A DNA stretch of 64,000 nucleotides from Paenibacillus spongiae (GTDB lineage: Bacteria > Bacillota > Bacilli > Paenibacillales > Paenibacillaceae), in contig NZ_CP091430.1 of NCBI RefSeq assembly GCF_024734895.1, forward strand, positions 3,676,501 to 3,740,500, in the 5' to 3' direction. Position numbers and translations under genes: made by a program. Shown here one piece after another: positions 7,416 through 17,231 of this stretch; the first letter of the stretch is position 1, and each line of letters opens with the position of its first letter. The notes beneath the pieces are model-generated. The model was given only the letters and a program-made list of their open reading frames with translations. It was not told the DNA's origin and did not search any database.

Positions 7416-8573
7416 ATGAATCTGGAATTAAACGCAAGTGAATATACAGTGACTGTCGAAGGCATAACGGTAAAACTGCTTCCCAAGGAGTTCGCTCTGA
7501 TGCGATTTCTTTACCGCAATAGAGGCCGTACATTTAGCCGAGAGCAGCTGTTGGATAAAGTGTGGCCGCTGGAATATCCGGTTGAGCGTACGGTAGATGA
7601 CCATATATACAGGCTGCGTAAGAAGCTAGACCCGTTTGCAGATCTGGAGATTAAGACGGTCCGGGGATATGGCTATAGCCTGGTTGTGCAGATTGCAAAG
7701 AACATAGGGGAAACGAACCCGACCACCCGGGACTTGGAGCTGCATGAGACGATGCGGGATGTAATTGGGAAATACCACCAATATGGCCAGGGCCGTTCGA
7801 TGCTGACCCTTGCACGCCAACAAGACGTGCTTGGGTATGAGTTGGACCCGTTTTATTCCGTCTATGTCCGTTTTGTACAAGGAGACCTGGAATGGCTGCT
7901 ACATACAGACGAGGTTTCGCTGGACGAGCGCTTCTATTGGCTGCTGTTGTTCTATATGTTCACAGGGAGCCCGAAGCAGAGGCTGACATACTGCGAGCAA
8001 GTGCTTAAGAAGAATTTGTTGTCTCCCGCACAGCACAAAGAAATGGAGATTCTCAATATTCTTGACTTGTATGCGCTAGCGGAAGAGCCCGATAAAGCGA
8101 TGGAACGCTTGAAGGTAAGTCACGCCTTGATTGCCGAACCGGATTATGAGAATTTCATACCGCAAACGGCCATTACGGAGATGTTTGTTCACTTGATTGC
8201 AGGAGCGGAGGAGGACGAGTTGGAGAAGATGGCGGAAACGATTGAAGCCGAGATTCTGTCCGCCAAGCCTTTTCTACGTGAGATCGGCAGTTACAAGGTG
8301 GTCAAGGGAATTTGGCGGTTGCAGCGTCAAGCATGGCTTGCAGCGGATGATCTGCTGGAGGAGGGACTCCAAGTGCTGGGCAAGTCAGGCTTTGTGCCGA
8401 TGAAGCTGCATGCCCTGTACCGTATTAATCATTATTGCGGCTTGTTTCCTCCGATAAAAGAATTGAAGCGGAAATATTCATATATTTTTGAAGAAGAACA
8501 GGAGCGGATTGGCCTCAAAAAGCTGTTAGGATCGTTAGAAGCAACGATGCTGAACAAGTTAAACCGTTTCTGA
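7416..8573 (+). CDS. Winged-helix (OmpR-type) transcriptional regulator with TPR-like C-terminus
   Basis: A 385-residue protein. Residues about 10-95 are an OmpR/PhoB-type winged helix (LLPKEFALMRFL, TFSREQLLDKVW, RTVDDHIYRLRKKL, IKTVRGYGY). No receiver domain precedes it. The remaining 290 residues are helical, in pairs resembling TPR or BTAD-like repeats, with no recognisable catalytic motif. It is followed by an MFS transporter, with an inverted repeat in the gap, so local control of that transporter is a reasonable inference. The ATG follows AGAAGGG. The architecture resembles SARP/BTAD regulators but is not clearly one of them. Confidence 0.8.
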   Translation: MNLELNASEYTVTVEGITVKLLPKEFALMRFLYRNRGRTFSREQLLDKVWPLEYPVERTVDDHIYRLRKKLDPFADLEIKTVRGYGYSLVVQIAKNIGETNPTTRDLELHETMRDVIGKYHQYGQGRSMLTLARQQDVLGYELDPFYSVYVRFVQGDLEWLLHTDEVSLDERFYWLLLFYMFTGSPKQRLTYCEQVLKKNLLSPAQHKEMEILNILDLYALAEEPDKAMERLKVSHALIAEPDYENFIPQTAITEMFVHLIAGAEEDELEKMAETIEAEILSAKPFLREIGSYKVVKGIWRLQRQAWLAADDLLEEGLQVLGKSGFVPMKLHALYRINHYCGLFPPIKELKRKYSYIFEEEQERIGLKKLLGSLEATMLNKLNRF

Positions 8574-8659: not shown

Positions 8660-9979
8660 ATGTCAGCTGCACAACAAGCAGAAAGAGCAAGCCTGCTTCG
8701 TAACAACGTTTACATGCGCGTATATAGCGCCTTTGCCGCTGCAACCTTAGGCGACTGGTTTGACATGTTGGCCATCCAGGTGATTGTGGGTTATCGTTGG
8801 CAGGCCGGACCGCTGATGTTAGCCCTGATTCCGGTCGCGAACGCTCTTCCAAGTATCCTGCTAGGCTCGGTTGCGGGTGTCGCTGCCGACCGGCTGAACA
8901 AGTTGAAGCTAATGCGTATTTGCGATTTGCTAACAGCAGTCCTGACCTTGCTGGTGTTATTAGCTCCAACTATGTTATGGCTGCTTTCTCTGCTTATGTT
9001 ACGCGCGGCAATCTCTACGTTAAATGTGCCCGCACAGCAGTCGTTGACACGCAGCATCGTCAGGGAGGATCAACTGCTTCAGGCTGCCTCACTCAACGGA
9101 ATCGTGAACCAAGGCTCCAAAATCGCAGGTCCTTTACTAGGCGGATTCGCTTTGTCCCTCCTGTCTCCGCAGTGGTGCATTTTGTTATGTGCCTGCTTCA
9201 GGCTGGGGTCTTATTTGCTGCTGCTCACCGTCAAGAATGCAGAGGCGGGAGTCGGCATGATAGCACCTGAAGGGGAGCGCTCGTTCGCGCCTGCGCTGGA
9301 GCAGCGGGTTCCGCTGCGTACCATGTGGAAGGAAGGCTGGAGCTTCATCTTGCACAGCCGATTACTGCTGACCACCATGCTGTTCGGGTTAACCGGGGCG
9401 CTCGCAATCCAGATGATCGATTTTCAGTTCACCAGCCTCTTCCGTGCTGTTGCTCCGAATCAGGAATCTTTGCTCGGCTGGATGGTGTCGGCATCTGGTG
9501 CTGGTGCCATAATCAGCATAATAGCGCTGAACAACATGAACCGTACAGAGGGATACGGTTGGAAGTTTGGAAGCGGTTATACGTTGATCGGAATATCCGT
9601 CGGAGGACTTGGTTTGCTCCCTGCCGGGGTATCCGTGCTGCCCGTAATGGTACTTGGGTTCGTTCTTGGCATCGGAAACGGCATGTTCATGGTTACATTC
9701 AACTATTGCTTGCAGAAAGAAACGCCATCGCATATGACAGGCCGTGTGTTCGGGATTCAGAGCACGCTCCTAGGGCTTGTGATGATTGGAGCGCCGCTGC
9801 TTGGGGGGGGGCTAGTACAAGTTACCGGTCCCGCACGTACCTTCCTGAATTTGGGCTTTGTAATTACCGTGATCGGTCTGGTGGGCATGTTGTTCGGAAG
9901 GGTGCTATGGCCTGCACCCAATGAAGGGTTGAAAAGCAATAGCGCTGTGAAACAGACAACGGGGGATCATGTAATCTGA
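8660..9979 (+). CDS. MFS transporter (macrolide/enterobactin-exporter-like family)
   Basis: A 439-residue integral membrane protein with about 10-12 hydrophobic segments. The N-terminal segment FAAATLGDWFDMLAIQ and the loop GVAADRLNKLKLMR match MFS_1/MFS_3 exporters such as EntS and MefA-like efflux proteins. ATG 8660 follows TTGGAGGAATG. It lies 86 bp behind the winged-helix regulator. It could be a drug or siderophore exporter. Because the TOMM cluster 0.5 kb downstream has no transporter of its own, a role in peptide export is possible but unsupported by direct evidence. Confidence 0.85.
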   Translation: MSAAQQAERASLLRNNVYMRVYSAFAAATLGDWFDMLAIQVIVGYRWQAGPLMLALIPVANALPSILLGSVAGVAADRLNKLKLMRICDLLTAVLTLLVLLAPTMLWLLSLLMLRAAISTLNVPAQQSLTRSIVREDQLLQAASLNGIVNQGSKIAGPLLGGFALSLLSPQWCILLCACFRLGSYLLLLTVKNAEAGVGMIAPEGERSFAPALEQRVPLRTMWKEGWSFILHSRLLLTTMLFGLTGALAIQMIDFQFTSLFRAVAPNQESLLGWMVSASGAGAIISIIALNNMNRTEGYGWKFGSGYTLIGISVGGLGLLPAGVSVLPVMVLGFVLGIGNGMFMVTFNYCLQKETPSHMTGRVFGIQSTLLGLVMIGAPLLGGGLVQVTGPARTFLNLGFVITVIGLVGMLFGRVLWPAPNEGLKSNSAVKQTTGDHVI

Positions 9980-10273: not shown

Positions 10274-10403
10274 GCTAAGTTCTACTTTCTGTTGTACTTC
10301 ATTAGCCATCTGCTTGGTTCTTTTTATTCGGTAGGCGATTGTCATAGGAACACTAGCGGATCTAATTTCATAAATTATCTAGTCGAGAAGGGGGATGGGC
10401 AGC

Positions 10404-10490: not shown

Positions 10491-10760
10491 ATGAACGATT
10501 TCCAGAAGGATCTGCAAAACCTGAATGTCGGCCAGTTCAATTCGACGGGGATGACGCCTACATCGGGGCAAAATCAGGCCGGTCCGGGGGATTCCCGCTT
10601 ATGTATCGGCATTTGCTTTTTTTGCTCAGGCTTTTGCGGCGGGTTTTGTTCATGCAGCAACTGTTTCCGCTGCAGCAACTGCTTCCGCTGCAGCAACTGC
10701 TTCAACTGCGGCCACTGCGGTAATTGCGCACGTTGCGGAAGCTGCGCTCGCTGCCGCTGA
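10491..10760 (+). CDS. TOMM (heterocycloanthracin/sonorensin-like) bacteriocin precursor peptide
   Basis: An 89-residue peptide with a 36-residue leader (starting MNDFQKDLQNLN) and a core that contains all 17 cysteines. After an irregular start (LCIGIC, FFC, SGFC, GGFC, SC) the core becomes eleven consecutive X-X-Cys triplets (SNC, FRC, SNC, FRC, SNC, FNC, GHC, GNC, ARC, GSC, ARC) and a final Arg. This pattern is that of heterocycloanthracin/sonorensin-family precursors, in which Cys (and some Ser/Thr) become thiazol(in)es. ATG 10491 is 6 nt after GGAGGG. The modification genes follow at 10998-16537, beyond a terminator that could keep precursor mRNA in excess. The product was not checked against a database. 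Confidence 0.9.
   Translation: MNDFQKDLQNLNVGQFNSTGMTPTSGQNQAGPGDSRLCIGICFFCSGFCGGFCSCSNCFRCSNCFRCSNCFNCGHCGNCARCGSCARCR
10653..10711 (+). repeat. In-gene tandem repeat encoding SNCFRC units
   Basis: The 18-bp unit AGCAACTGCTTCCGCTGC occurs twice (the first copy with TGT for TGC) and begins a third time before diverging to FNC. It shows the core growing by unit duplication. Confidence 0.8.
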
Positions 10761-10799
10761 GTACCGAATAGCTCGCTTGGCGATCCGCAAAACGGTATG

Positions 10800-10840
10800 C
10801 CCCTGCAGATGTCTCAACCTGCAGGGGTTGTTCCTTTTTT
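10800..10840 (+). terminator. Terminator after the precursor gene
   Basis: CCCCTGCAG / CTGCAGGGG stem (10800-10808 and 10819-10827) with a downstream T run (10835-10840). It lies between the precursor and the biosynthetic genes. Confidence 0.8.
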
Positions 10841-10915
10841 GTCGTTTCTGGCATGACGGACAAAACGCTCTACATAACTTAAAAATGGAGGACAGCGAAG
10901 GCTTGTGGGTACAAT

Positions 10916-10980
10916 GCGGTTTTGCCTTCGGCAAAACCTAAGTCCATGCTTACGAAGCGGTTTTGCCTCCGGCAAAACCT
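10916..10980 (+). repeat. Duplicated 24-bp hairpin element before the maturation operon
   Basis: Two copies (10916-10939 and 10957-10980) of GCGGTTTTGCC-TYC-GGCAAAACCT differ at one loop base. Each folds into a perfect 9-bp hairpin (GGTTTTGCC / GGCAAAACC). The second copy ends two bases before the AAGGAGG ribosome site of the next gene. They may be REP-like elements or a structured leader. Confidence 0.8.
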
Positions 10981-10997
10981 TAAGGAGGAATAAAAAC

Positions 10998-12956
10998 TTG
11001 AATCCTTCAATGCGTTTGAAAGTGAACGGGGACACGTTTTTTCTCCCCGATTCGAACGGAGGCGTCTACTTTCGCAACAATACGGGTTCGTTTCGAATGG
11101 AAGGCGACATGATCGATCGGTGGATCGAAAAATTGATGCCCGTGTGGAACGGGGATAATTCCATGGCGGATCTGACGGACGGGCTGCCGGAACCGCACAG
11201 GACAAGGGTTTATGAAATTGCGGAAGTACTGCTAAATAACGGCTTTGTCCGGGATGCCAGCCAAGACCTTCCGCACAGCCTAACGGAAGTTGTCGAACGG
11301 AAATTTGCCGCTCAGATCGAATTTCTGGATAGTTTGGGCGGTTCGGGCGCTCACCGCTTTCAAACGTATCGCCAGGCAAATCCGATTGTGGCCGGTTCCG
11401 GTCCGATCTTCGTCTCGCTCGTTGCGGCCTTGTTGGAATCCGGATTGCCCCGGTTTCGTATGCTGATCACGAACCGGGCGACCACGGATCGCCAGCGAAT
11501 CGACGAGCTGACAGCGACAGCGCGTTTATCGGACTCCGAGATCGAGGTCGAGGAGATCTTTCAGTCAAATGATGGCTTCCTCGATTGGCCGGAAGTTGTG
11601 CGTTTAGCGGATTCCGTCCTATACGTCGCTCAGGATGCCGAACCCGGTGAGCTCAGAGCGCTGCACGCGGCCTGCAGGGAAGCGAAGAAGATGCTTCTGC
11701 CTGCCATCTATTTGCAGCAGGCGGGCATAGCAGGGCCGTTGGTAACAACGGATTCCGACGTCTGCTTCGAATCCGCTTGGCGCAGGATTCATCGTTCCGC
11801 CCTTGGTGATGCAAACCGGCTGCCTGCCGTCTCAACGACTGCGGAAGCCATGCTCGCGAATGTGGTCGTGTTCGAATGGCTTAAGACCGTTACGGGGACG
11901 ACGGCTTCGGAATTGAACGGGAAGCTGTTCCTGCTGAATCCGGAAACATTAGAAGCCGAGTGGCATTCGTTGCTTCCCCATCCGCTGGTCAGGGGTCTGC
12001 GTCCCGCCGAGCCTACTAATCCGTTCGACCTGTCGATTGAACAGCGTACGGAGCGGAAGGAAACAGACCGTCTCCTCTCCTATTTCAATCGCTTGACTTC
12101 GACGGAGACCGGTATTCTCCATCGATGGGAGGAAGGGGACTCGAAGCAGCTTCCGCTCTCGCAGTGTCGCGTCCAGGCAGTCGACCCGCTAACGGAGGGT
12201 CCTGCAGAGCTGCTGCCGCAGATCGTCTGCTCGGGGATGACACATCATGAAGCAAGGAAGGAAGCGGGCTTGGCCGGCATCGAGGCGTATGTGTCGCGAC
12301 TGGCCGGGGTTCTGAAGTTAGCCGGTCCAGCACAGCCGGATTCCGCAAGCCCGATCGAGTCGCAGCTGCATGAATATGTAGGGATTGGAGCGGGAGAGAC
12401 GACAGCGGAAGCGGTCATTCGCGGACTGCGGAAATGTCTGTTCGAGGAGCTGAAAATCCGTTCCGAATCCAGCTTGCCCTTCATTTATCGAATCAAGCTA
12501 AGCAAGGTTGAGGACGATTATTGCCGCTATTGCTTGCACGCATTGGCTACGATGCGAGACACTCCCATAATCGGACTGGGGCAAGAAACGGCGGGTTTCC
12601 CAGTCGTCTGGGTCTGTACGAACGGTTACTGGTATGGTGGAGTTGGAGTCAATCGCACGATGGCGCTGCGTGATGCGCTCCGGCAGGCGCTGATGAAAAC
12701 GCAAAACGATGCAGCGGACATTCAGGGCCAAATCCTGGAGCGATCATCGGTCAAGGTGGAAGATGTCTTGCCCCAAAGTCTGACGATCCCAAGCTTCGAT
12801 GAGTCGGAATACGGCCTGACGCTGCAGTCCGTCCGGCAGATCCTGCAGAGGAGCCGGAAGCGGATTGAAGTCATTGATTTATCGATAGAACCATTTATGA
12901 AGGATGAGCTGGCAGGCGTGTTTGGCGTGTCGCTGCGAGAGGGGGAGACGCATTGA
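10998..12956 (+). CDS. Thiazole-containing bacteriocin maturation protein (Ocin-ThiF-like, 'F' protein)
   Basis: A 652-residue protein. Residues about 1-95 look like a winged-helix leader-recognition element (ending VYEIAEVLLNNGFVRD). A ThiF/E1-like nucleotide-fold segment follows (GSGPIFVSLVAALLESG). The C-terminal 250 residues contain segments resembling degenerate YcaO motifs (EARKEAGLAGIEAYV, TAEAVIRGLRKCLFEEL). In heterocycloanthracin-type clusters such a protein binds the precursor leader and delivers it to the cyclodehydratase. I chose TTG 10998 because AAGGAGG (10982-10988) is 9 nt upstream; the ATG at 11010 is too far. Its stop overlaps the TTG start of the next gene, implying coupled translation. 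Confidence 0.82.
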   Translation: MNPSMRLKVNGDTFFLPDSNGGVYFRNNTGSFRMEGDMIDRWIEKLMPVWNGDNSMADLTDGLPEPHRTRVYEIAEVLLNNGFVRDASQDLPHSLTEVVERKFAAQIEFLDSLGGSGAHRFQTYRQANPIVAGSGPIFVSLVAALLESGLPRFRMLITNRATTDRQRIDELTATARLSDSEIEVEEIFQSNDGFLDWPEVVRLADSVLYVAQDAEPGELRALHAACREAKKMLLPAIYLQQAGIAGPLVTTDSDVCFESAWRRIHRSALGDANRLPAVSTTAEAMLANVVVFEWLKTVTGTTASELNGKLFLLNPETLEAEWHSLLPHPLVRGLRPAEPTNPFDLSIEQRTERKETDRLLSYFNRLTSTETGILHRWEEGDSKQLPLSQCRVQAVDPLTEGPAELLPQIVCSGMTHHEARKEAGLAGIEAYVSRLAGVLKLAGPAQPDSASPIESQLHEYVGIGAGETTAEAVIRGLRKCLFEELKIRSESSLPFIYRIKLSKVEDDYCRYCLHALATMRDTPIIGLGQETAGFPVVWVCTNGYWYGGVGVNRTMALRDALRQALMKTQNDAADIQGQILERSSVKVEDVLPQSLTIPSFDESEYGLTLQSVRQILQRSRKRIEVIDLSIEPFMKDELAGVFGVSLREGETH

Positions 12957-14902
12957 GCGCGATCGTAACGGTCATCGGGGAAGGGCAGCTCGCGGAATTG
13001 GTAAGCAAGCAATTGTCTGCCGATAACCGCTATCGGCTGGTTCGGCAGAAGAAGATAGAATTCGGAGAGGCGGCTGCGGGAGACTTGGCGCTGGTATTGA
13101 ACGATGCATGGGCTCCATCCGTTCATCTTGCTGCGGAGGATCGGTTCCGACAATCGGGAACGCCTTGGCTGCGCGGCTTCGTTGCATTCGGAGAGGGAAT
13201 TGTCGGTCCGCTTGTTCGTCCGGAGGGGCAAGGATGCTCGCATTGCGCGGACACCCGGTTCCTGCTGGCGGGAAGCGACCGCAGGGAAACGTGGGATTTG
13301 CAGCAGAAGCTGGCGTTGCATGGGGGAATAGCCCGGGACGCTTGGGCGTCGCGCACGGGATTATTGCAGGTGGCGCGTCTTGTTGAGGCAGAAGCCGTGA
13401 AGCTGCTGGAGGGCTTGCAGCCGATGACGGAAGGTCGGATGTTCTTGATCAATCTGCGTACGATGAATAGCTCGTCGCACTTCTTTCTGCCCGATCCGCT
13501 ATGTCCGATCTGCGGCCGATTGCCGGAAGACGATGCGGAGACGGCCCGCATTGCGCTGCAGCCAAGCCCGAAAATCAGCGCCGAATCGTATCGCAGCCGT
13601 TCGATGGATGAGCTGAAGAATGTGCTGGCCCAAGATTACTTGGATGCCAGGACCGGTTTTCTGAACGGGAAGATGGTTGATCTTATTTCCCCTTTCGCCG
13701 ATGCGAGCATCAATTTGCCCTTGTTTGGCGGGGATGAGGCTTGCGCTGGTCGGACCCACTCCTATGCGGATAGCGAAATGACGGCCATTCTGGAGGGACT
13801 GGAGCGTTATTGCGGCCTGTCTCCCCACGGCAAACGAACCGCCGTTCATGACAGCTATCACAATGTGCGGAGCCAGGCGCTCGATCCTCTACGCGTAGGC
13901 ATCCATGCGAAGGAACAGTATGAGCGTTCCGACTTTCCGTTCAAACCATTCGATCCCGAGCGGCCGATCGACTGGGTATGGGGCTATTCGTTTCTGCAGC
14001 AGCGTCCGATTCTCGTGCCGGAGCTGCTTGCTTATTACAGTTCGGGCTGCGGTCACGGATTCGTCTACGAAACGTCCAATGGCTGCGCGCTTGGCGGCAG
14101 TCTGGAGGAAGCGATCTTCTACGGAATGCTGGAAGTGGTGGAGCGAGACTCCTTCCTCATGACCTGGTATGCGCGTCTGCCGCTGCCGCGCCTGGATCTC
14201 CGATCGGTGCAGGATCGGGAATTAAGATGGATGACGGATCGTTTGGAGGCCGTCGCGGGCTATGACGTGCATTTATATAAATCGACAATGGAACACGGCA
14301 TACCGAGTGTGTGGGCGCTCGCGAAAAACAGGAAAGAGCTGGGCGTGAACCTCATTTGCGCGGCGGGTGCCCATCCGGATCCGATCCGAGCAGCGAAGAG
14401 CGCGATTCACGAGGTGGCGGGCATGCTGCTTACGCTCAGCGAGAAATTCGAGGAGAACCGTCAGCAGTATGAACGGATGCTTCATGATCCGTACCAGGTC
14501 GTTCAGATGGAGGACCACTCCATGCTGTACGGGTTGAAGCAGTCGGAAGGTCGGCTCGATTTTCTGCTGAATGACGATCGCCCGATGCAAACGTTCGCCG
14601 AAGCGTTTGAACCGAGGGGCTGGAACGTCGATCTTACCGATGATCTGAAGGCCATGCTGCATGTGTTTCGCCAATTGAATCTTGAAGTGATCGTGGTCGA
14701 CCAGACGACTCCGGAGACGCGCCGCAACGGGCTGCATTGCGTGAAAGTGCTCATTCCCGGCATGCTGCCAATGACGTTCGGACAACATCTCATCCGATTG
14801 ACGGGACTGGATAGAGTGCTCAGAGTCCCTGCGGAGCTTTCTTATTCACGGGAGCCCTTGACGCCCGAGCAGCTTAATCCATATCCGCACCCGTTCCCAT
14901 AA
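12953..14902 (+). CDS. Fused C-D TOMM cyclodehydratase (leader-binding domain + YcaO)
   Basis: A 649-residue protein. The N-terminal 200 residues form a truncated E1/ThiF-like C domain with four zinc-type cysteines, C95-x2-C98 and C184-x2-C187. The YcaO domain follows with ATP-site motifs SEMTAILEGLERY (about 274-286) and SNGCALGGSLEEA...EVVERD (about 375-399). The protein ends PYPHPFP, the proline-rich PxPxP tail needed for catalysis in YcaO cyclodehydratases. It should use ATP to cyclise Cys/Ser residues of the precursor to azolines. TTG start overlaps the previous stop (TTGA). Fused C-D next to a separate F protein is notable, since the characterised Bacillus Balh system has C and D separate. 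Confidence 0.92.
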   Translation: MSAIVTVIGEGQLAELVSKQLSADNRYRLVRQKKIEFGEAAAGDLALVLNDAWAPSVHLAAEDRFRQSGTPWLRGFVAFGEGIVGPLVRPEGQGCSHCADTRFLLAGSDRRETWDLQQKLALHGGIARDAWASRTGLLQVARLVEAEAVKLLEGLQPMTEGRMFLINLRTMNSSSHFFLPDPLCPICGRLPEDDAETARIALQPSPKISAESYRSRSMDELKNVLAQDYLDARTGFLNGKMVDLISPFADASINLPLFGGDEACAGRTHSYADSEMTAILEGLERYCGLSPHGKRTAVHDSYHNVRSQALDPLRVGIHAKEQYERSDFPFKPFDPERPIDWVWGYSFLQQRPILVPELLAYYSSGCGHGFVYETSNGCALGGSLEEAIFYGMLEVVERDSFLMTWYARLPLPRLDLRSVQDRELRWMTDRLEAVAGYDVHLYKSTMEHGIPSVWALAKNRKELGVNLICAAGAHPDPIRAAKSAIHEVAGMLLTLSEKFEENRQQYERMLHDPYQVVQMEDHSMLYGLKQSEGRLDFLLNDDRPMQTFAEAFEPRGWNVDLTDDLKAMLHVFRQLNLEVIVVDQTTPETRRNGLHCVKVLIPGMLPMTFGQHLIRLTGLDRVLRVPAELSYSREPLTPEQLNPYPHPFP

Positions 14903-14944
14903 AAACGGTTAGCGCGGAGCAGTTGATGCCAAGGGGGAAAAGAG

Positions 14945-16537
14945 ATGAGTTTGATGAATCTGGACGTTTTTCTTCACCTTCTGCAATATGATCCGGATAA
15001 GGTCAAGCCGTTGGATTGGGAGACGGACTGGGATGACGCGCCTCTTCCGTATAAACTTTATCGCGGTCTGCCGCTGGTTCCGCTATCCAGAGAAGTGCCG
15101 GCAACGCTCGAAGGCAGGGATACGACCGGTGTGCCGGGCCTTCGCGATATCGGACATTTCCTCTATTACGCATTCGGGCTTGCGCAATTGACCCAAACCG
15201 TCATGGAACGGGATCCGTCGGAAGAATCGGGAGGCGTCTTGCAAATGTGCCGGCGCTTCGTTCCTTCCGGGGGCGGGTTGTATCCGAGCGAATTGTACTT
15301 CTACCTGAAGCTCAGTGAATTGCCTGCTGGCATATACCATTACGATGCGGCGCATCATCGGTTGGCGTTACTGCGCGAAGGAAATTTCGACGATTATTTG
15401 GCGAGATCGCTCGGGGATCGCTGCGACACGAACGATTGCTTCGGCGCCGCGTTCGTATCTACGGTTTACTGGAAAAATTTCTATAAGTACAATAATTTTG
15501 CCTACCGGCTGCAGGGACTCGATGCCGGCATTTTGATCGGACAGCTGCTCGAACTCGCGAAACGATTCGGATTTTCGTCTGTCGTGCATTATCAATTTCT
15601 TGATCAAGCCGTTAACCATCTGCTTGGACTATCGGAACAAGAGGAGAGCGTGTATGCGGTTATCCCGCTATCGACGGTACCAGCGAACCGGTGGATGTCA
15701 AGCGGGTATGAGGATGAGGAGACGGTTTCCGCCTCCGAGCTATGCCGTGTGTTGCCGTCAGTCAGGCATGATCATTACATCAGATCGCGTCGAATCGCAG
15801 AATATCCGATGCTGCTTCGGATGAGCGAAGCGTCCCGACTGGATTCGGCGCAATTATTTCGACAGTTCCGGAAGGATGAGCAAGCAATCCCGGATCAGGC
15901 GTCTGCACTGCCTCTGCCGCCTGTTGACCGCTTGTCGTATGATTTGGCGGCGGTTTGCCGTAACCGGTTCTCGCCCGAGACGGAATATATCTTGAAGCCG
16001 ATCGGTCTCTCCCGGCTTGCAGCTTTGCTTCGGGAAGCAACGGCTTCCTTCTCGTATCGCAACGACCTGGATGGAGCGCAGGAGCGGCCGGAACCCCGAG
16101 TATGCCTATATGGCTGCTTCTACGGGGTTGAGGACGTTCCGGATGGCGCTTATCGTTATGATGTCGATGCGCATGCGCTGCAGCCGGTCTGTCTTGGCGA
16201 TCACCGGCAGCGGATGCAGGAGGGAATGTCGCTTCCCAATGTCAATTTGTTTCAAGTACCGCTTGGTTTTCATGTGGCAGGGAGGAGGAATTTCTTGCAT
16301 TCGCAGCTTGGCAAGCGGGGATACCGCATTCTGCAAATGGAGGCCGGGATGCTCGTACACCGATTATTGCTGACGGCATCCGCCCTCGGGATGGGAGGTC
16401 GTCCGCTTCTCGGATTTGACGCCAATTCCAGCGATACGCTTTATCAGGCCGCTTCCCGGGATGAAACGGGGCTGATTTTTATACCGGTCGGTCCCTTTCG
16501 CGAGCGGTTGCGTTTGGCGGGCAGTATGAGCCGTTAA
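14945..16537 (+). CDS. SagB-family peptide azoline dehydrogenase
   Basis: A 530-residue protein with two nitroreductase-like halves, each with FMN-binding features. The N-terminal half has RRFVPSGGGLYPSELYFYL and GIYHYD; the C-terminal half has YRYDVDAHAL, then AGMLVHRLLLTASALGMGGRP. SagB enzymes oxidise azolines to thiazoles and oxazoles with FMN. ATG 14945 is 42 bp after the cyclodehydratase, behind AGGGGGAAAAGAG. It is the last gene of the TOMM operon. The double-domain layout matches SagB proteins of sonorensin-type clusters. Together with the previous two genes it provides the full core chemistry; no dedicated protease or transporter gene is adjacent. Confidence 0.92.
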   Translation: MSLMNLDVFLHLLQYDPDKVKPLDWETDWDDAPLPYKLYRGLPLVPLSREVPATLEGRDTTGVPGLRDIGHFLYYAFGLAQLTQTVMERDPSEESGGVLQMCRRFVPSGGGLYPSELYFYLKLSELPAGIYHYDAAHHRLALLREGNFDDYLARSLGDRCDTNDCFGAAFVSTVYWKNFYKYNNFAYRLQGLDAGILIGQLLELAKRFGFSSVVHYQFLDQAVNHLLGLSEQEESVYAVIPLSTVPANRWMSSGYEDEETVSASELCRVLPSVRHDHYIRSRRIAEYPMLLRMSEASRLDSAQLFRQFRKDEQAIPDQASALPLPPVDRLSYDLAAVCRNRFSPETEYILKPIGLSRLAALLREATASFSYRNDLDGAQERPEPRVCLYGCFYGVEDVPDGAYRYDVDAHALQPVCLGDHRQRMQEGMSLPNVNLFQVPLGFHVAGRRNFLHSQLGKRGYRILQMEAGMLVHRLLLTASALGMGGRPLLGFDANSSDTLYQAASRDETGLIFIPVGPFRERLRLAGSMSR

Positions 16538-16622: not shown

Positions 16623-17231
16623 TTACCGGTGGCGGTTATCCCACGGATGATGGCCATGCGCGTGGGGATGGTGCCATGAATGGATCCAATCATGATGGTA
16701 ATCGACCGAGTAGTAATCCCATCCTGAAGACGGATAATGATGAAGGTGGTCATCCATATGCGGATCCCATGGATAGTGCATGAAGGGATGGATCATGTCG
16801 GGATAGTGATCATGCTCCCAAGGGTGAACCATTGCGAGATGCTGCTCATACTCCCAGGGGTGAACCATCGCGGAATGCTGCTCATATGCCCAGGGGTGAA
16901 CCATATCCGGATCCTGCTCATGTTCCCAGGGGTGAACCATATCCGGATCCTGCTCATGCTCCAGGGGCTGAACCATTGCGGGATGCTTCTCATGCCCCCA
17001 GGGATGAGCCATTGCGGCTTGCTGCTGCTCCCAAGGATGACACATCCCATGATGGTGTCCGTGATGATGTCCGTGATGATGAGGAATATGGTACCAGGTG
17101 TAGTGGGACTCGTGTAACACGTCATCGCGAGGACTTATTTGATCATTCGATTGCTGCTCGAATGCTTGCTTGGACGGATCGGAACCCTGCAAGCCGGCCG
17201 GGTTCTGGACGAAAGGCTGATGGTGTATCAT
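16623..17231 (-). CDS. Histidine-rich 12-residue-repeat protein
   Basis: A 202-residue protein with no recognised family. After a 45-residue polar N-terminus it has HHHGHHHGHHHG, then about seven copies of a 12-residue unit of the form MVHPWEHEQxxx, then more His/Trp/Asp/Tyr-rich sequence. Overall it is very rich in His, Trp, Pro, Met and Asp/Glu and has no signal peptide. The minus strand is chosen because AGGAGGT lies 8 nt before ATG 17231; plus-strand frames over the same repeats lack this. Metal binding (Ni, Zn, Cu) is plausible, and a spore-coat or surface role is possible. Its place next to the TOMM cluster may be coincidental. Confidence 0.7.
   Translation of the reverse strand: MIHHQPFVQNPAGLQGSDPSKQAFEQQSNDQISPRDDVLHESHYTWYHIPHHHGHHHGHHHGMCHPWEQQQAAMAHPWGHEKHPAMVQPLEHEQDPDMVHPWEHEQDPDMVHPWAYEQHSAMVHPWEYEQHLAMVHPWEHDHYPDMIHPFMHYPWDPHMDDHLHHYPSSGWDYYSVDYHHDWIHSWHHPHAHGHHPWDNRHR
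16760..17040 (-). repeat. 36-bp tandem repeat within the His-rich gene
   Basis: About seven direct copies encode (Q/H)xxxMVHPW(E/A)(H/Y)E. Copies around 16904-16960 are nearly identical at the DNA level, indicating recent duplication. Confidence 0.8.

Follow-up and report, generated by a model that had tools for sequence, protein, structure and literature searches.

The heterocycloanthracin (HCA)-like locus of Paenibacillus spongiae raises two questions: whether its gene set is an uncommon one, and when a peptide with no protease or dedicated exporter gene beside it would be made. We analysed a stretch of 64,000 nucleotides (contig NZ_CP091430.1, positions 3,676,501 to 3,740,500), here called the window.

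Gene content of the cassette

We found all four genes of the predicted cluster, A, F, C-D and B, in that order on the + strand (Table 1). The original prediction had assigned them to the HCA/sonorensin type of TOMM, and the sequence bears this out; the searches that it had named as its refuting check, with profiles for YcaO, ocin-ThiF and SagB, all matched, with TIGR03693, TIGR03604, TIGR03882 and TIGR03605 above their cut-offs.

Table 1. Features of the cassette and its upstream region, in window coordinates.
Feature	Position	Strand	Details
GerE-type box CGGTAGGCGATT	10329-10340	+	TAGGC at 10332; family consensus AAATRGGCNTTT
sigma-K-type promoter	10348-10377	+	-35 GAACA 10348-10352, 15-nt spacer, -10 TCATAAATTA 10368-10377
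A, precursor peptide	10491-10760	+	89 aa; leader ~1-37, core with 17 Cys
Terminator-like hairpin and T-run, A-F gap (probable attenuator)	10799-10841	+	-19.2 kcal/mol in window
Perfect hairpin, first copy	10917-10938	+	one of two exact pattern matches in genome, both here
Perfect hairpin directly 5′ of F ribosome-binding site	10958-10979	+	13/13 sequences, -6.3 to -13.0 kcal/mol
F, ocin-ThiF-like protein, N-terminal RRE	10998-12956	+	TTG start; TIGR03693 671.8 bits (cut-off 561.9)
CD, fused C-D cyclodehydratase lacking an N-terminal RRE	12953-14902	+	TTG start; TIGR03604, TIGR03882, PF02624
B, SagB-type azoline dehydrogenase	14945-16537	+	TIGR03605 190.4 bits (cut-off 78.4); two nitroreductase-like stretches

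The predicted count of 17 Cys in the precursor is exact. The first is residue 38, and Cys-to-Cys spacing is 3 (12 times), 4 (three times) or 2 (once). A matches TIGR03601 over nearly its full length at 23.5 bits (E 6.4e-5), short of the cut-off of 35, and a Pfam search of A gave no match; when the precursor was aligned with 59 relatives, 60/60 matched TIGR03601 at E <= 0.01. The cores of these relatives differ in composition and in their Cys-containing repeat units, variation of a kind already described (Haft 2009, PMC2674419). A six-frame TIGR03601 search of the genome at E <= 0.001 found nothing, the window's own precursor included, and so has no bearing on whether the genome holds a second one. 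The single Rfam match, inside the precursor, is sub-threshold (20.4 bits vs 100).

The best start for F is its TTG, 9 nt 3′ of AAGGAGG and invariant across 13 aligned sequences. Pfam gave no match to F; a search with its residues 11-85 hits the PbtF structure 8t19 (E 4.8e-7), a fragment that we take to be the RRE. By this match the leader-binding RRE sits in F, with binding predicted. C-D carries TIGR03604 (432 bits, cut-off 219.25) and TIGR03882 (152.9 bits, cut-off 36.9) on the same polypeptide and matches Pfam YcaO at 304.2 bits; the 7.6 Mb genome has one YcaO match at E <= 0.001. In the alignment with TruD, residue 37 of C-D pairs with residue 152, making the N-terminus of C-D ~115 residues shorter, and the proline-rich tail that had been pointed out is NPYPHPFP, alignable with the tail of TruD. 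McbC is among the weak structure matches of B (E 0.0018).

The gap between A and F contains hairpins. The terminator-like one folds in the window and in all 12 relatives (13/13); L045 shows a two-sided pair change, L038 and L039 have bulges, and L044 has a weak T-run. The hairpin before the F ribosome-binding site also folds in 13/13, and bulges or a weak T-run in some of these sequences are recorded for the two hairpins together. With two exact copies only, the hairpins at 10917-10979 are not a genome-wide repeat. The likely purpose of the terminator-like hairpin and of the one before the ribosome-binding site is to keep precursor mRNA above enzyme mRNA.

Downstream, convergent with B, a repetitive His-rich protein of 202 aa with no Pfam match is encoded at 16626-17231 on the - strand; its relatives occur in 7/75 loci, mostly just 3′ of the cassette. 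Upstream, a regulator gene (7416-8573) was considered as part of the cluster and rejected, giving scattered matches to proteins that share its type of DNA-binding domain and nothing more.

Comparison with known systems

The pairing of a fused C-D with a separate F had been called unusual. This is refuted: in the portion of Cox 2015 available (PMC4603692), the fused cyclodehydratase lacks ~100 N-terminal residues in all HCA producers and F is present in all HCA clusters, so that the combination is instead the defining one; HcaF, HcaD and HcaB are described likewise in a part of PMC10634744. The absence of a protease and exporter was correctly reported and is usual, cyclodehydratase, F and B alone being universal among HCA clusters in the same portion of Cox 2015, which puts their number at 254. 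The window thus shares with HCA clusters (Haft 2009, PMC2674419; Cox 2015, PMC4603692) the F protein, the C-D without ~100 N-terminal residues, the SagB dehydrogenase, a precursor with Cys-Xaa-Xaa core, and a protease and exporter that are not obligatory. It differs in that its precursor gene adjoins the enzyme genes, whereas that gene is remote in most B. cereus clusters, and in that its core is rich in Phe, Asn, Ser and Arg and its precursor falls below the family HMM cut-off. The HCA precursor gene of B. licheniformis likewise adjoins two maturation genes (Haft 2009, PMC2674419); by annotation, this precursor and sonorensin of B. sonorensis belong to the same precursor family as A, with cores that probably differ from its own.

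The F-dependent cyclodehydratases of thiopeptide systems (TclI/TclJ/TclN; PbtF) likewise combine an RRE-bearing F, a fused E1-YcaO protein and a dehydrogenase, and F of the window matches PbtF. The shared block of the window, in contrast, is A, F, C-D and B alone, and no thiopeptide macrocyclisation gene was found among that part of the window ORFs that was scanned with Pfam. The cluster is an ordinary, complete HCA cassette, which adds one member to a large family; the more informative features, absent from the original prediction, are its upstream element and its horizontal mobility.

An element upstream of the precursor gene

We noticed the element while reading the regions upstream of the precursor genes of the window and of 61 loci from the scan for relatives described below (62 regions, the first set). 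From its sequence it reads as a GerE box followed by a sigma-K promoter. We take the GerE consensus to be RWWTRGGYNNYY; the window box agrees with it at 9/12 positions, the first three (RWW) mismatching, and the cluster consensus AAATRGGCNTTT fits it. In the literature searched, no string like RWWTRGGYNNYY was found printed for GerE; such a string turned up in one paper, a cyanobacterial review. For sigma-K, the B. subtilis consensus is given as KCACM / GCATANNNTA in an excerpt of PMC3416734, and the optimal spacing as 15 +/- 1 in one of PMC517825; GAACA-15-TCATAAATTA of the window agrees at 4/5 and 6/7 specified positions, with one mismatch in each part.

Twenty-seven anchored cluster representatives give the consensus AAATRGGCNTTT-N6-GTAACA-N16-CATANNTTG, with the distance from box to -35 identical in 26/27. 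Conserved beyond the anchoring pattern are AAAT 5′ of the box, a G and a T 5′ of the -35, and TT within the -10; between lineages the spacer sequence varies, while box, -35, -10 and spacing stay constant. CATA lies 52-166 nt from the start codon, and a second candidate start was found in none of the upstream regions. Two features speak against sigma-K: the -35 reads AACA where CACM is expected, and in 21/27 cluster copies the -10 ends in G rather than A.

A second set was drawn from TIGR03601 matches in other Bacilli (30 loci, 3 dropped, leaving 27). It partly overlaps the first: the upstream region of L161 equals that of L086, and L140, L159 and L161 cluster with the first set. Counts leave out L055 (contig too short), L153, L160 and L166 (no start found), and loci without an identified precursor. 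The pattern T[AG]GG[CT]-N8-16-A[AG]C-N16-18-CATA, fixed on the first set, occurs in 49/62 of the regions there (shuffles, 0.18/62) and in 14/27 of the second set, or 11/24 among regions unlike the first set; its controls are 0.1/27 (maximum 1) for shuffles of the second set and 2/493 for upstream regions of other ORFs. With the second set already in view, the pattern was relaxed to AC; this form occurs in 57/89 regions (39/62 and 18/27) and 30/47 sequence clusters, vs 0.73/89 in shuffles and 3/493 other upstream regions. Either form is present in 68/89 regions and neither in 21/89. The anchored consensus accounts for 54/89 regions and 27/47 clusters, a variant with TAGG[CT] for 38/62 and the GerE box alone for 27/62; other spellings of the -35/-10 alone gave 48/62 and 22/62, 58/62 and 16/27, and 43/89 and 54/89. 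Judged by these sequence matches, the element is common to many relatives in Bacilli.

Results for F and for the genome at large weigh against the sigma-K reading. A -35/-10 score >= 10 was reached upstream of A in 40/62 cases, vs 12/62 upstream of F and 33/337 for other ORFs, and the F upstream regions show little enrichment of the element. It was looked for, and is absent, upstream of the His-rich gene 3′ of the cassette. Genome-wide, the strict composite has 4 matches vs 12 in a reversed control; of the three outside the cassette, one stands 86 nt 5′ of a dTDP-rhamnose epimerase gene and the other two fall within long ORFs, so the composite is not a general coat-gene signature.

Both regulators have counterparts in the genome: sigma-K at 359.5 bits, and for GerE a homologue with 76% identity over 71 aa. 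The gene of this homologue is preceded by GCACC-15 nt-TCATACTATA, near the published sigma-K consensus, a single within-genome example that carries no chance estimate. As a candidate member of a regulon like the sigma-K/GerE one of B. subtilis, A shares with it the -35/-10 elements, the 15-nt spacing and a putative GerE-type box; unlike the products of that regulon, the product of A would be a RiPP. Titles and abstract beginnings in the literature gave no report of sigma-K/GerE control of the HCA family, a weak negative since subscription journals fall mostly outside that coverage. Biofilm cells of B. cereus are described, in an excerpt of PMC6962202, as up-regulating both putative HCA genes and sporulation genes, the latter dropping at 72 h. 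We set aside the SigB-dependent B. cereus YcaO gene BC5122, as its membership in an HCA cluster could not be told from the available part of PMC9912610.

Relatives and probable horizontal transfer

Named genomes were scanned with C-D, over contigs with one of six peptide patterns, yielding at least 77 loci; L111 and L112 (24-26% identity) were excluded as too distant, leaving 75 Bacillota loci with best-segment identity of 53-92%. These span Paenibacillus, Cohnella, Brevibacillus, Aneurinibacillus, Neobacillus, Mesobacillus, Sporosarcina, Thermoactinomyces and others. In the locus DNA examined, an F relative accompanies the C-D relative in 70/75 and a B relative in 60/75, an association beyond chance; in many loci F is preceded by a Cys-rich precursor, and the order A-F-CD-B is seen. 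Within the family of the window, 78/295 genomes have a TIGR03693 match, 42 of them above cut-off.

Several loci depart from the common arrangement. In L085, L088, L089, L090, L091, L096 and L109, C-D adjoins a shorter F relative that apparently lacks the N-terminal RRE region, in some of them divergently; these loci have no dehydrogenase match, and the non-divergent ones, which were searched, have no adjacent Cys-rich precursor. In the family search, many F matches begin near profile positions 120-200. For the cluster of Paenibacillus cisolokensis, the F gene (L064:2854-5121) matches in several pieces, as if frame-split, and L069, L095 and L108 have a second C-D gene 3′ of B. Elsewhere in the window's own genome (L171:37-7668, C1:1612036-1619667) is a row of sulfotransferase, weak HPr-kinase-like, nucleotidyltransferase, ABC transporter and asparagine-synthase genes, which resembles a cluster of lasso-peptide type.

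The DNA shared with 12/12 near relatives has its left boundary at the promoter (10304-10332) and its right one somewhere from 16542 to ~17377; the first 40 kb of the window compared with the flanks of these relatives gave no further match but one of 104 bp (L045). C-D identity at fourfold sites is 70-84% in 12/12 near relatives, vs 31-48% for gyrB. Conversely, among the 15 for which GyrB proteins were compared, L046 is closest (87.6%), yet its C-D is only 69.9% identical, with 41.8% at fourfold sites. Because C-D so exceeds gyrB in all near relatives, and a relative close by GyrB has a distant C-D, these sequence comparisons are best read as horizontal movement of the cassette within Paenibacillus.

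Proposed mechanism and alternatives

We consider it probable that the locus is an HCA/sonorensin-type TOMM cassette whose precursor would be transcribed late in sporulation, in the mother cell. Judged from the promoter, sigma-K RNA polymerase together with GerE would transcribe A, the transcript starting 5-10 nt 3′ of CATAAATTA, and the terminator 3′ of A would keep A mRNA more abundant than F-CD-B mRNA. The RRE of F would bind the precursor leader and present the core to the truncated C-D, which would cyclise Cys (perhaps Ser) residues; the SagB dehydrogenase would then oxidise the azolines to thiazoles. Such thiazole chemistry had been predicted for the cluster and finds support in its sequence; we infer it by analogy with reconstituted HCA enzymes. 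The polythiazole peptide may be freed by mother-cell lysis or retained with the spore, either of which would make an exporter unneeded.

The same chemistry could instead serve a conventional secreted bacteriocin: a vegetative or transition-phase promoter would drive it in growing or stationary cells, shared housekeeping transporters and proteases would export and trim it, and the element would bind another regulator. The family is annotated as bacteriocin, and sonorensin is reported, in the part of PMC4544038 available, as an antibacterial bacteriocin that kills bacteria. A sigma-70-like scan, however, gives no site upstream of the precursor gene, and the element agrees with sigma-K and GerE at several positions as well as in its spacing. 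The MFS transporter gene upstream (8660-9979) would suit a secreted product, but it has no relative (E <= 1e-5) in the DNA examined of 77 related loci and lies outside the shared block, and we rejected it as a dedicated exporter. We regard secretion of this kind as possible though rather unlikely. That the cluster is decayed or silent and retained by chance seems very improbable: the score of the precursor below the TIGR03601 cut-off would fit decay, but all four frames are open and the RNA hairpins are conserved, and amino-acid identity to 12 near relatives (C-D 87-92%, F 83-87%) exceeds fourfold-site identity (70-84% and 69-79%, respectively), as expected under purifying selection.

Transcription by sigma-K and GerE remains our preferred reading, and the upstream element gives a testable reason for the missing exporter. 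We lean towards a wider view from these sequences, that HCA-type peptides across Bacilli may be developmental products of the mother cell under sigma-K and GerE, acting as a part of the spore surface or as a spore guard released by lysis, and that the cassette spreads with its own sporulation promoter; such spread would suggest selection on a spore-stage function. The element points to sporulating mother cells and spore extracts, beyond culture medium alone, as places to look for the peptide. The putative sporulation promoter is a strong lead, and would change how the HCA family is studied.
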